Source: Acinetobacter sp. TR3 (GTDB taxonomy: Bacteria; Pseudomonadota; Gammaproteobacteria; Pseudomonadales; Moraxellaceae). Taken from it: 64,000 nt of DNA. The DNA is taken from NCBI RefSeq assembly GCF_027105055.1, contig NZ_CP114264.1, forward strand, positions 248,001 through 312,000, read 5' to 3'. Of this stretch, positions 41,433 to 45,546 are shown piece after piece; positions within the stretch are counted from its first letter, which is position 1, and each line of letters starts with the position of its first letter. The translations under genes and the position numbers were made by a program. Under the pieces are notes generated by a model. It did no database searches. It saw nothing but the letters and a program-made list of their open reading frames with translations, and had not been told where the DNA came from.

Positions 41433-42131
41433 TTAGTCGAAAATCTTTTCCGCTGCTTGGAACGGTAAACTCACCACATCAATCGCTACAGCAAAAGGCA
41501 GTAAAACCAGTTTTTCTAAAGGATTCATACCTGATTTTGATTTATAACTTTCTTCTTTATTGGTATAGATAGAGACTTGGTAAGGCTTACTTAATGCTTT
41601 TAATGAGGTGAGATTATTTGCAGCAGGGTATACGACACCAGCAAGCTTAATATCAAAACAGAACCGCTGTGCATACATACGCTCATCGCTTGAGGATGAA
41701 CATTCTTTTGCGCCATTTTCAATAAAGAACTCTAGATCTTTTTTGCTTAAATCTTCTTTAAGTTTTATATAGGAAAGTGGCAATGTACCTGAAAAATTAC
41801 CATCATTCTTTTCAGAATAAAAACTCAAGTCCCGTGTTATTTGGATATTTTTAGCATCAAGTTTACTGATCAAGCTCACAAATTGAGAACCACCTTGAGT
41901 CAAAATATAGCTGTTTTTTTTCCCTGCAATCACGATACTGTCTTTGGGTAAATTTGACGATGTTTGCGCAGGTCGCCCAAAAGCAACCACATTGTCTTCA
42001 ACTAAAGTGACACGTTCTGTTCGAGTATAGGTTTTGTTGTCTTTGTTAATCAGTGTTTTGGTTGCGCATCCCGTTAAACATAATGCTGTAATTGATATCG
42101 CTGTAGTCATTTTAATTAGAGTTGAAAACAT
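41433..42131 (-). CDS. Unknown lipoprotein
   Basis: A 232-residue protein with a lipoprotein signal peptide and lipobox LTGC at about residues 19-22. It has two Cys residues in the middle (KECSSSS and QRFCFD) and a C-terminal hydrophobic segment (PLEKLVLLPFAVAIDVVSLPFQAA) that could touch the membrane. No family is recognised. Confidence 0.72.
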   Translation of the reverse strand: MFSTLIKMTTAISITALCLTGCATKTLINKDNKTYTRTERVTLVEDNVVAFGRPAQTSSNLPKDSIVIAGKKNSYILTQGGSQFVSLISKLDAKNIQITRDLSFYSEKNDGNFSGTLPLSYIKLKEDLSKKDLEFFIENGAKECSSSSDERMYAQRFCFDIKLAGVVYPAANNLTSLKALSKPYQVSIYTNKEESYKSKSGMNPLEKLVLLPFAVAIDVVSLPFQAAEKIFD

Positions 42132-42427
42132 CCAGTTCTCCTAATGATTTAAGTTTAAAATTTAAAAAAATAATTGATATTCATACAATATTTAAAAGAC
42201 CATAATGAAAAATCTAAGTAGAAGCGAGGACTTTTCTCTTAAGTATGGCGATCTTTACAAAGATTAAACATGATCGCTAATACGGATAAATTTGATTTCT
42301 CGTTTAAAATTTTGGTGAAATTTACCGTTTATCAGAGTGATACAGAATTCAATATTACTTTGTTGTAGGCTTAAGCTTATAGTTATTTTTATTCAATATT
42401 TAAGGTGAATGATTTTTGGAGCAAGTG

Positions 42428-42928
42428 ATGAACTTTCTAAAACGATCAGCGCTGATGATGGCATTTACTTTGGTTGGATTTTCAGCAGTACATGCCGAAG
42501 AGGTTGCAACTTTACCAACCATTCGTATTATGGCTGAATCTGAATTACGTGAAGAAGTCGTAGGACCTACTCCATTTCAAGAAGATAAAAAGGTACGTCA
42601 AGCACTTCAGCATCGTATTTATAAAACCCATACTGATATGCAGAATGCAGGAATTCCTGAGAATATTAGTGCAGTTGAATTTGAACCAAAGGTGCAGTCA
42701 GGCTTATCTCAAGTTTCACCTGGGTTACAAGAGTATATTCTAGCGGTGGCTTCAGGTTTTCAATCATCTGATCCAACTAATGGTGTATTTAAAATATTAG
42801 AGCCACTTAATATAAATCGCAACAATATTGATGGCATTCGTGATGGTTCGATTAAAGTCAATTTGAATGATATTTTGCTATTACAGCAGCAAATTCAAAA
42901 TGGTTTAAAAGATTTTAGACAACCATAG
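42428..42928 (+). CDS. Unknown periplasmic protein
   Basis: A 166-residue protein with a signal peptide (to VHAEE). The mature N terminus, ATLPTIRIMAESELREE, resembles the start of TonB-dependent receptor plugs, but no barrel follows. The start is the ATG at 42428, six bases after GGAG. Function is unknown. Confidence 0.7.
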   Translation: MNFLKRSALMMAFTLVGFSAVHAEEVATLPTIRIMAESELREEVVGPTPFQEDKKVRQALQHRIYKTHTDMQNAGIPENISAVEFEPKVQSGLSQVSPGLQEYILAVASGFQSSDPTNGVFKILEPLNINRNNIDGIRDGSIKVNLNDILLLQQQIQNGLKDFRQP

Positions 42929-42983: not shown

Positions 42984-43652
42984 TTATTGTTTTAGGTAAC
43001 GCTCAAAAATTGCAGAGAAATCATAGTTCTCAATTTGTTTACGACGTTCAGTAAACTTATTTTCAACTTGAATGGTGGTCTGAGAAATAATATCAGGGAG
43101 GTTTAACAACACTTGTTCTGGTAATTCACGCAGAGAAAACATGTTATTCACAGCTTGTTGAGTGATGACTAGCGAATTTATTTGACGTTCAATTTCTTTG
43201 CATGCTTCCCCAATACTAAATAGAGCTTTATATAAATCTCGTACCTTTTCGATTTGTGATTTTTCAATATCAATTGAATAACTTGCACCACCAAGTTGGA
43301 ATTTGATTTCGACGTCCCGATCAATTGTACCTGCTGTTTCTAGAAGCACCCGACTAATCTGATAGTGTTTATATGGATAGCGATTCAACGTCCGTTTTTT
43401 GCTGACCGCACTTGTACCATCTAGATGAATGAAAGCGGTATTGGTAAAGCAGTATTCGTCGGTTTTTGCTTTGATCAAAAAGAAAATTTTTTCATTGTCT
43501 TCATGGAAAATATAGTCATCAATATCCGTCTTATCATAATCTCTAGGTTCAATAATCTTACCGATATCACTGGTTCCCATTAGATCAGCTGCCATATTTT
43601 TAAACATTGTTAGAACCTTATCGTTTTTGGAACTGTGATCATAATTTGTCAT
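42984..43652 (-). CDS. PH-domain-like protein (bacterial PH)
   Basis: A 222-residue cytoplasmic protein. The middle part has the alternating strand pattern of a bacterial PH domain (IFFLIKAKTDEYCFTNTAF, then RTLNRYPYKHYQISRVLLET), followed by a helical C-terminal region. It may begin at the ATG at 43652 or at 43607, where AAGG lies eight bases ahead. It is immediately downstream of the reverse transcriptase on the same strand, but its base composition is like the core genome, so a functional link is unproven. Confidence 0.68.
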   Translation of the reverse strand: MTNYDHSSKNDKVLTMFKNMAADLMGTSDIGKIIEPRDYDKTDIDDYIFHEDNEKIFFLIKAKTDEYCFTNTAFIHLDGTSAVSKKRTLNRYPYKHYQISRVLLETAGTIDRDVEIKFQLGGASYSIDIEKSQIEKVRDLYKALFSIGEACKEIERQINSLVITQQAVNNMFSLRELPEQVLLNLPDIISQTTIQVENKFTERRKQIENYDFSAIFERYLKQ

Positions 43653-43745
43653 ATATTGTTTTGTCTAGAAAATACTTTTAATTAAGTAGTTTAGATTTTT
43701 TTGGTTTTAAGATTATTTCTCTACATGATTTTTATGATGTGGTAA

Positions 43746-43760
43746 AGAGTGGTTTACTCT
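43746..43760 (-). terminator. Weak hairpin after the reverse transcriptase
   Basis: AGAGT and ACTCT form a 5-bp stem six bases after the RT stop. The T tract is poor, so transcription may run on into the PH-domain gene. Confidence 0.35.
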
Positions 43761-43765
43761 GAAAT

Positions 43766-45151
43766 TTATTTTTTAGGAGTAGATTCTAAAAGATGATATT
43801 CTTTATTGAGTTCATTATGCTTCTTTATATGCATTTGAATTTTAGACCAGTGAGGCTTGATTTGTCTTTTTATAGCAGGTTCATTCATAATGGATGCTGC
43901 TCTTAGGGCATAGCTAATATAATTTCTTTTCCCAATAAATGAAAACCGCCTGTAGATATGTTTTTTATGCCTTTCTAACGGTTCTTCACCTCTTTTAATT
44001 CTCGAATTATTGATCTTTAATAATTTCTTATTAGTCATTCGAATGGCTTTTGAGGCTTTGTATTGATATTGGATTAAACCAGCATCACGTAGTAGAATTT
44101 TTTTACCATTATAAGTAAAGCCGAGATATTGAAGTGGCTCTCTACTCATATGTGGTTTATCATAAACATGTAAACCATTTTTAAAATAAACTAACTTAGT
44201 TTTTTCGGGATGAATTTGAACCTTTAATTTGCTAATCATTTTTTTTGTTTCTAAGTGGATTTTCATGCCTAGGTCTAAGTCACATAATATTAGAATATCA
44301 TCACAATATCTGTAATATGATGCATTAAGTTTTGATAGATAACTGTTAATATTTTTATCAAAATCAAACATGTAGATGTTTGATAGGAATGCGCTTATAG
44401 CAGAACCTTGAGGAATTCCTTTAGTTTTATCTTCTTTGATAATTAATTTATTTTTCCTAATTTTATTTCTAAAATCATGGCTAGAGCATAATTTTTTTAA
44501 ATCTCTATGATTTTTATTAATGGATAACTCTAAAATGCTATAAACATCTTTTTTATTTACATAAGAAAATTTTGTGATTGATTTATAAACTTGATAATGG
44601 TCTTTAGGTAAATAATCGGTTTCTAATATTCTAAGCCAAGCTTCTTTTAAGATTTGATGATCAAGTTCATCGAAAAATTTTTTAATATCAAAACATAAAG
44701 CGACGCAGTCTCTTCTTTCCCTTATTTCATCAAAAATTTTTTTGGCAAAATGAATGTTATTTGGTGAATTTGGTAGTTTTCTAAAAGCCAAAATATTTTC
44801 TGATAGATTAGACTCTTGAATTAATTTTTCATAATTTGGTGTAAGCAATGCCGCATAATAAGCATATATATGACCATCTATATGAGAAGAATATTTGATA
44901 GGTCTAATTTTTTGGGGACATTTAACAATAGCATATCTATCTTTCTGACCTTTTATCTTAATAATTTTGGTCTTATCTTTTTTGATTTTTCTTGATGTAA
45001 GTTCAAAATGTATAAATGGGTGGAAAGCATGCTTTTCAATATTTTTAGGATTAGTTACATAGTCATAAACTTTTTTAGGCTGCATTGGGTAATCAAAATG
45101 CAAATATTTTCTCTGCCGATTATGAAAGAAATCTATATCTATATTTGTCAT
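43766..45151 (-). CDS. drt2: Antiviral reverse transcriptase, DRT2 (UG2) type
   Basis: A 461-residue reverse transcriptase of the defence-associated unknown-group class. Finger motifs start near residue 80 (KIRPIKYSSHIDGHIYAYYA). Motif A is FDIKKFFD (about 154-161), motif B GIPQGSAISAFLSNIYM (about 245) and the catalytic motif YCDD is at about 282-285. There is no maturase, HNH or retron-type YADD motif. The ATG at 45151 is preferred over a TTG at 45166 that overlaps the upstream RNA hairpin. The gene is far more AT-rich than its fadBA neighbours, a sign of transfer. Type 2 is inferred from overall sequence feel plus the upstream RNA that encodes a Neo repeat. Confidence 0.88.
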   Translation of the reverse strand: MTNIDIDFFHNRQRKYLHFDYPMQPKKVYDYVTNPKNIEKHAFHPFIHFELTSRKIKKDKTKIIKIKGQKDRYAIVKCPQKIRPIKYSSHIDGHIYAYYAALLTPNYEKLIQESNLSENILAFRKLPNSPNNIHFAKKIFDEIRERRDCVALCFDIKKFFDELDHQILKEAWLRILETDYLPKDHYQVYKSITKFSYVNKKDVYSILELSINKNHRDLKKLCSSHDFRNKIRKNKLIIKEDKTKGIPQGSAISAFLSNIYMFDFDKNINSYLSKLNASYYRYCDDILILCDLDLGMKIHLETKKMISKLKVQIHPEKTKLVYFKNGLHVYDKPHMSREPLQYLGFTYNGKKILLRDAGLIQYQYKASKAIRMTNKKLLKINNSRIKRGEEPLERHKKHIYRRFSFIGKRNYISYALRAASIMNEPAIKRQIKPHWSKIQMHIKKHNELNKEYHLLESTPKK

Positions 45152-45286
45152 TATTAGAAAACTCAAGAAAAGGTTGACGATAATCCTCGTAAAAACGTTC
45201 TATCCTATGAATAGAATTTCTTGAGCATACCTAAGTACCCAATATTACGTACCCTCTAGAAGAAACCTTCTACATCGTCTTTAGAT

Positions 45287-45436
45287 CACGAAAGGATTAT
45301 ACTATGAGAAGCATTGATTACATTCTGTGGAGTTCAATATACATTGGCTGTACTTTATTCCAAACAATATGCAACGTTTCACCAGAAATGTTAGATATCG
45401 TTCTAACATTGTGTGGAGCAACACTTGACAACAGAT
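45287..45436 (+). CDS. neo: neo: repeat unit of the nearly endless ORF made by template jumping
   Basis: Sense strand equals the cDNA. The frame is open from 45235 to a TAG at 45460-45462. If cDNA synthesis jumps from 45436 to 45287, where AGAT at 45433-45436 matches AGAT at 45283-45286, the unit is 150 nt (50 codons) and the junction codon is TCA, so no stop remains. SD AAAGGA (45291-45296) is seven bases before ATG 45304. Each predicted 50-residue repeat has two helices: one about 20 residues long (IDYILWSSIYIG...), a Pro-containing turn (NVSPE), and a second (MLDIVLTLCGATL). The known role of Neo in Klebsiella DRT2 is growth arrest on infection. The protein itself is a prediction. Confidence 0.8.
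45291..45303 (+). promoter_or_regulatory. neo -10 box and ribosome site
   Basis: TATACT (45298-45303) is a 5-of-6 match to TATAAT. It lies directly after AAAGGA (45291-45296), which serves as the ribosome site for ATG 45304 in the following repeats. It has no -35 partner in the chromosome; one appears only in the concatemer. Confidence 0.75.
45425..45430 (+). promoter_or_regulatory. neo -35 box
   Basis: A perfect TTGACA near the 3' end of the predicted cDNA. After the jump, six bases (45431-45436) plus eleven (45287-45297) separate it from TATACT, giving the ideal 17-bp spacer. Confidence 0.78.
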
Positions 45437-45470
45437 TACCTTCCCTATGTACTTTTACATAGGCAATTTA

Positions 45471-45499
45471 AATATATTTAAAGTTTGTGGATATTGCAA
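45471..45499 (-). promoter_or_regulatory. Promoter of the DRT2 ncRNA-RT operon
   Basis: On the minus strand TTGCAA (45499-45494) and TATATT (45476-45471) are 17 bp apart. Transcription would start near 45464, at the foot of the first hairpin. It lies just after the fadA terminator. Confidence 0.7.
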
Positions 45500-45513
45500 T
45501 ATTCGATTGATAA

Positions 45514-45546
45514 TAAAAATCCCCGCAAAATGCGGGGATTTTCTTT
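45514..45546 (-). terminator. Terminator of fadBA
   Basis: AAAATCCCCGC/GCGGGGATTTT is a strong stem with an ATTTT loop. On the minus strand it is followed by TTATT. It separates fadBA from the DRT2 locus. Confidence 0.92.

Follow-up and report, generated by a model that had tools for sequence, protein, structure and literature searches.

In the published DRT2 system, the closest described relative of the locus analysed here, a reverse transcriptase (RT) reads its template as far as an ACA, returns to anneal at another ACA and starts again, the joined product containing a promoter with 17-nt spacing and an endless open frame, according to the available text of two published accounts (PMC12039810; PMC11100668). 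The ncRNA of the Klebsiella system has been reported to contain a pseudoknot (PMC12039810), and the available text of Tang et al. describes Neo as harder to annotate in the more divergent DRT2 clades, suggesting alternative mechanisms (PMC11100668). Two other systems, DRT9 (UG28) and DRT10 (UG17), share the repeated copying of an ncRNA with the system proposed below, and homology of 2-3 nt at the template ends allows DRT10 to reset; however, their products are homopolymers or short tandem repeats, for which the available text describes no coding unit (PMC12632851), and their RTs are far weaker matches to the one studied here. A literature search for DRT2 or UG2 reverse transcriptases in Acinetobacter yielded nothing bearing on the locus, judged by title. 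The family and mechanism of DRT2 are already known, and the additions made by this analysis are a jump motif, a unit length, a start arrangement and a chromosomal niche.

The DNA examined, referred to as the window, is a 64,000-nt stretch of Acinetobacter sp. TR3 (NZ_CP114264.1, GCF_027105055.1, contig positions 248,001-312,000). It contains a DRT2 RT and a predicted adjacent pseudoknotted RNA, the latter of which would probably be copied repeatedly from ATC to ATC into 150-bp repeats predicted to express toxic Neo during phage infection. A first-pass annotation had assigned to DRT2 an RT gene with FDIKKFFD and YCDD motifs downstream of fadBA; the ORF listing contains this gene, on the minus strand, and together with a comparison of flanks bears out the location. 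The longest ORF with both motifs spans 43766-45166, and the ATG common to aligned relatives lies at 45151, giving a protein of 461 aa; the gene had been recognised correctly, but its start lies 15 nt inside the ORF used.

43766-45151, minus strand: DRT2 reverse transcriptase of 461 aa with a YCDD active site, identified by the Drt2 profile and the match to PDB 9c0i, its start taken from aligned relatives

The DRT2 assignment is supported by the RT profiles, by an ncRNA with the published layout (a handle, a template and a 3' scaffold with a pseudoknot), and by a coding repeat unit that can be derived from it. Firstly, the RT passes the NCBIfam Drt2 model (505.6 bits, cut-off 390), and among PADLOC profiles, the comparison that the annotation had proposed as its check with UG2 expected on top, Drt2 is the best match (502.1 bits, 3.6e-151), far above UG17 (85.3) and Drt9 (52.3). 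Hence neither UG28 nor UG17 is its best PADLOC profile, as would be expected of a DRT9 or DRT10 enzyme, and scores of 81.5 bits for group II introns (cut-off 300) and 49.6 for retron St85 (cut-off 235) place it outside those classes too. The similarity to the solved RT of Klebsiella pneumoniae DRT2 (PDB 9c0i, E 1.7e-112), the system of the available text of PMC12039810 and PMC11100668, extends over nearly the full length, residues 8-447 of 466 aligning with 3-423.

RT matches at E <= 0.001 were found in 38 of the 175 genomes of the genus, and at E <= 1e-30 in 12 of 175, the window's own included. The comparisons below use a close set of six loci, namely the window, L002, L004, L005, L006 and L007 (L003 and L002 are one and the same place, counted once). 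In this order, the other five RTs are 80, 64, 62, 61 and 53% identical to that of the window, or 78, 63, 61, 60 and 54% in a second alignment. The L007 RT contains an internal stop, and its stop-free portion was used in comparisons; yet at this locus (L007/L079, genome G121) the ncRNA, motifs and Neo frame look intact around that one stop in the RT. A tree of 21 RTs joins the six (100/99) to their nearest branch, L008 and L009 of Acinetobacter and L032 of a Psychrobacter plasmid, apart from L065 of E. coli and the others; L065 matches 9c0i at 571.5 bits and was used as the stand-in for the Klebsiella type, while the L008 RT contains internal stops.

Secondly, the DNA upstream of the RT, on the same strand, resembles the K. 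pneumoniae ncRNA in its handle, template and pseudoknotted scaffold. The predicted elements are as follows.

45471-45499, minus strand: promoter-like site of the ncRNA, TTGCAA-17-TATATT, from a promoter scan (9 of 12 matches), with a TATATT-like box retained by eye in aligned relatives
45162-45464, minus strand: predicted ncRNA with putative ends, from the conserved alignment of six, covariation and a covariance-model match over 45153-45464
45444-45463, minus strand: 5' handle hairpin of 8 pairs, five of them changed on both sides; 45444-45464 alone folds with z = -5.29
45274-45279, minus strand: 5' strand of the pseudoknot helix, GACGAT, pairing in six of six loci, with two of six pairs compensated
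45176-45181, minus strand: 3' strand of the pseudoknot helix, ATCGTC, with the same pairing and compensation
45162-45225, minus strand: 3' scaffold, in which the closing helix has 9 pairs and crosses the pseudoknot helix, with 92.6% of cells paired

The promoter that the annotation had ascribed to this region is present as the TTGCAA-17-TATATT site, but such sites are not above chance for the region, which has 9 against 11.8 in shuffles; the site alone proves nothing. Its claim of about 300 structured bases is firmer: the 312 nt of 45464-45153 have a stronger fold than shuffled sequence (z = -2.66, with 2 of 100 shuffles equally good), and covariation agrees. The named structure comprises the 5' handle, a stem closing the template, the scaffold hairpins and the crossing helix. 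In the alignment of six loci, both partners have changed in 17 of its 54 pairs, and 91.5% of cells are paired, values each reached by none of 500 shuffles; the count of further pair types in this alignment was not above shuffles (288 of 500 reach it). When slid along the alignment, the structure retains 1 to 5 such pairs against 17 in place, a comparison in which it has the advantage of having been drawn from the window's own sequence. This evidence supports the prediction that the upstream DNA specifies a conserved pseudoknotted ncRNA, and the span from 45464 to 45162 proposed previously fits both a predicted start 7 nt after the -10 box and the final base of the closing helix. Against 25 sources, a covariance model of the six ncRNAs finds the six and L068 (E = 0.012); the ncRNAs of L008, L009, L032 and the Klebsiella-type L065 were not found by it. 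The ncRNA of the closest relative (L002, 4714-5014) is without the scaffold hairpin that the window has at 45257-45272, the other five keeping 90% of that hairpin's pairs.

Thirdly, the ncRNA contains a stretch from which a coding repeat can be built.

45287-45436, minus strand: inferred template, 150 nt long and complementary to the predicted neo unit, from a unit scan in which 1 of 400 shuffles scores as high
45434-45436, minus strand: first ATC, within the template at its 5' end, the predicted jump-off motif, from the alignment of six
45284-45286, minus strand: second ATC, immediately 3' of the template, the predicted re-annealing motif, from the alignment of six
45425-45430, plus strand: -35 box of the junction promoter, TTGACA, from unit joining
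45298-45303, plus strand: -10 box of the junction promoter, TATACT, at a 17-nt spacing that arises only with units joined
45289-45293, minus strand: predicted primer-binding site, from the analogous Klebsiella bases 142-146, where the template ends at 148 (PMC12039810)

Both this primer site and the ends given above for the ncRNA are provisional, being placed by analogy with Klebsiella. When the 150-nt complement is joined head to tail, it forms TTGACA-17-TATACT and exactly one stop-free frame, the same outcome as in K. pneumoniae DRT2, although the unit there is 120 nt. At the aligned sites, the units of the six loci measure 150, 150, 147, 153, 153 and 141 nt (window, L002, L004, L005, L006 and L007), all divisible by three, and in six of six loci one open frame, the same in each, crosses a junction with a TTGNNN-17-TATA(A/C)T promoter. 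The template-end motif also differs from the ACA of K. pneumoniae: rather than two ACA, the template is bounded by ATC and ATC in the window, and by ATT at both sites in L007, a change from ATC to ATT that counts as one event across the six. ACA was rejected as the jump motif of the window, since all four candidate units that the scan gave there use other motifs.

The position of the start signals is a further difference.

45291-45296, plus strand: predicted ribosome-binding site of neo, AAAGGA, with AAAGG in six of six loci 7-8 nt before the ATG
45304-45306, plus strand: predicted neo start codon, ATG, directly after the -10 box and in frame in six of six loci

In all six loci, the order is junction, AAAGG, -10 box and, immediately after that box, the in-frame ATG, such that AAAGG and ATG flank the box; in L005 and L006, this ATG is the sole in-frame ATG, GTG or TTG of the unit. 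In L008, L009 and L032, the spacer contains a GGAG-type site, and an in-frame ATG is located at the -10 box, the junction promoter of L009 being poor (TTTACA/TAGTAT). In K. pneumoniae DRT2, by contrast, both signals are downstream of the -10 box, as are the GGAG- or GAG-type site and ATG of the five Klebsiella-type loci inspected for this feature (L033, L065, L066, L067 and L068), an arrangement not found in the window. A sigma-70 transcript begins about 7 nt after the -10 box. The ribosome site and ATG of the window are upstream of the transcript start predicted in this way; hence the first usable start would be in the next unit, and Neo would require a cDNA of three units or more, with two junctions; this we infer to be one unit more than in the Klebsiella arrangement. 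The displaced start codon therefore gives a testable prediction, namely the number of repeats needed before toxin is made.

The RT would accordingly be expected to copy the template to the first ATC, re-anneal at the second, matching ATC and repeat, generating head-to-tail 150-bp cDNA repeats that carry the junction promoter and the endless frame, with the neo transcript beginning past its own start codon and meeting its first ATG one unit later. Other steps are carried over from the Klebsiella system: priming would occur from the 3' end of the ncRNA, phage infection would be the trigger, a second strand would be synthesised, and Neo would arrest growth, thereby blocking the spread of phage.

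The jump motif is only 3-4 nt long, and the window contains further candidate units, of 108 nt with a score of 10.5. Together with the possibility of a non-standard start downstream of the -10 box, these points favour the best-surviving alternative, that the locus is DRT2 and does encode Neo, but that the template ends or the start codon are not those proposed, in which case either the ATC jump or the need for three units would fall away. The 108-nt candidates were passed over in favour of the 150-nt unit, whose score is higher and which is present at aligned sites in six of six loci, and the single in-frame ATG/GTG/TTG per unit of L005 and L006 opposes a different start; this alternative is consequently judged unlikely. 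Its assessment draws on a scan for any repeated motif of at least 3 nt giving such a unit, which covered 24 upstream regions, omitting L011, L034, L071 and L072, and whose scoring was framed after the unit of the window had been seen. As a control, the scan returned ACA/ACA for the Klebsiella-type loci L065 (117 nt), L067 and L068 (120 nt) and L035 (111 nt). It gave AGAT for L033, TGT for L066, and TATG/ATGT for the sister loci L008 (132 nt), L009 (144 nt) and L032 (138 nt); for L074 and L075, it gave no candidate unit.

Chance was gauged with 400 dinucleotide shuffles per locus, L035 being outside this test. Within the close set, the best score was reached by 1 (window), 0 (L002), 10 (L004, where the best-scoring unit differs from the conserved one), 1 (L005), 22 (L006) and 12 (L007) of the 400. 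The corresponding counts were 2 for L008, 24 for L009, 6 for L032, 12 for L010, 6 for L012 and 10 for L013; they were 0 for each of L033, L065, L066, L067, L068 and L073, 1 for L069, 20 for L070 and 50 for L037. The units suggested for L010/L012/L013, L037, L069, L070 and L073 are not claimed. At L073 (2001-3260, a Nitratidesulfovibrio vulgaris plasmid), where none of the 400 shuffles scored as high, the promoter is strong with a 16-nt spacing, and the open frame is hydrophilic, unlike Neo.

Slightly less likely still is a reading in which the ncRNA is copied by the RT into repetitive cDNA and the DNA itself acts, with no protein encoded, after the manner of DRT9 homopolymers or DRT10 tandem repeats. 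Other ncRNA-templated defence RTs act in this way, according to the available text of PMC12632851, and coding selection at the locus is weak. In the Neo frame, pN and pS are 0.11 and 0.26 between the window and L002, and 0.08 and 0.19 between L005 and L006, suggesting weak selection on the coding frame; other frames are equally low in some pairs, including one antisense frame of window and L002 (0.10, 0.28) and the +1 frame of window and L005. The Neo frame is not the most hydrophobic of the window, hydrophobicity being itself a weak test. Against a role for the DNA alone, the six units have four different lengths, all of which preserve divisibility by three, one open frame each and the junction promoter, and the RT is Drt2, rather than Drt9 or UG17. 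Repeated copying that yields a Neo-coding product therefore remains the preferred reading.

The locus has a fixed place in the chromosome, with all six close-set loci located on the downstream side of fadA, on the same strand. In L006, a homologue of the window gene at 41433-42131 and a transposase-like ORF, recognised by eye, lie between fadA and the DRT2 locus. FadA was detected in 165 of 173 genomes. Comparison of fadA flanks returned 30, one being the window itself; among the 29 others, 26 have in the next 1.5 kb a homologue of either the bPH gene (42984-43652) or a 170-aa gene (42416-42928), and the remaining L099, L100 and L105 have neither. The bacterial PH-domain gene (PF08000) was rejected as a DRT2 accessory, since in 9 of 29 flanks, from relatives with no DRT2 at this place, it comes directly after fadA, and since none of the PADLOC families matches it; it is not part of the system. 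The extent of the DRT2 locus can be read from comparison with an empty site.

43668-45514, no strand: stretch absent at the same site in relatives, from comparison with L085

These 1847 bases of the window correspond to 59 bases in L085, which L086, L089 and L090 match to within a few bases. The stretch consists of the ncRNA, the RT and short flanks, and the window ORF listing has no integrase ORF within it. A search of 175 genomes with the ncRNA model, using filters that lose weak matches, found the six loci and genome G087. In the latter (L120, 1501-1617), which had no RT match at E <= 0.001, the promoter-like box, the handle and approximately 46 nt from the ncRNA start are kept directly after fadA; the first motif there is ATT, and the remainder of the ncRNA is gone. 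Judged from what is kept, this remnant is a relic of a DRT2 ncRNA. Such loss in the genus, seen in this relic and in the internal stop of the L007 RT, is what would favour a decaying, inactive copy in the window as well, which is nevertheless highly improbable, as its RT, YCDD, ncRNA helices, motifs, promoter and frame are all intact. The fixed niche behind fadA, the empty sites and the relic make for a tractable history of gain and loss.

Beyond the window, the six loci suggest that what DRT2 requires is a match between two short motifs, whose sequence may vary, and not ACA as such. Hence the hidden neo genes of other clades may be findable by a simple scan. It is probable, though with less assurance than the reading of the window itself, that the Moraxellaceae branch of DRT2 has its own jump words (ATC/ATT, or TATG/ATGT in the sub-branch of L008, L009 and L032), a -10 box wedged between ribosome site and ATG, and production of Neo only at three or more units, which would act as an inbuilt count of repeats that guards against accidental toxicity. 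Such a branch would be one of the divergent DRT2 clades in which Neo is reported to be hard to annotate.

The viral contigs searched yielded no confirmed relative, and the phage records yielded three matches of 28-32% identity; a search of plasmid DNA matched 23 records, mostly at the end of fadA, none covering 80% of the query. The genus also contains a more distant DRT2-like group (L010, L012, L013 and L034) with the RT motif YRRYCDD, one copy of which sits on an A. lwoffii plasmid beside IS66 genes.
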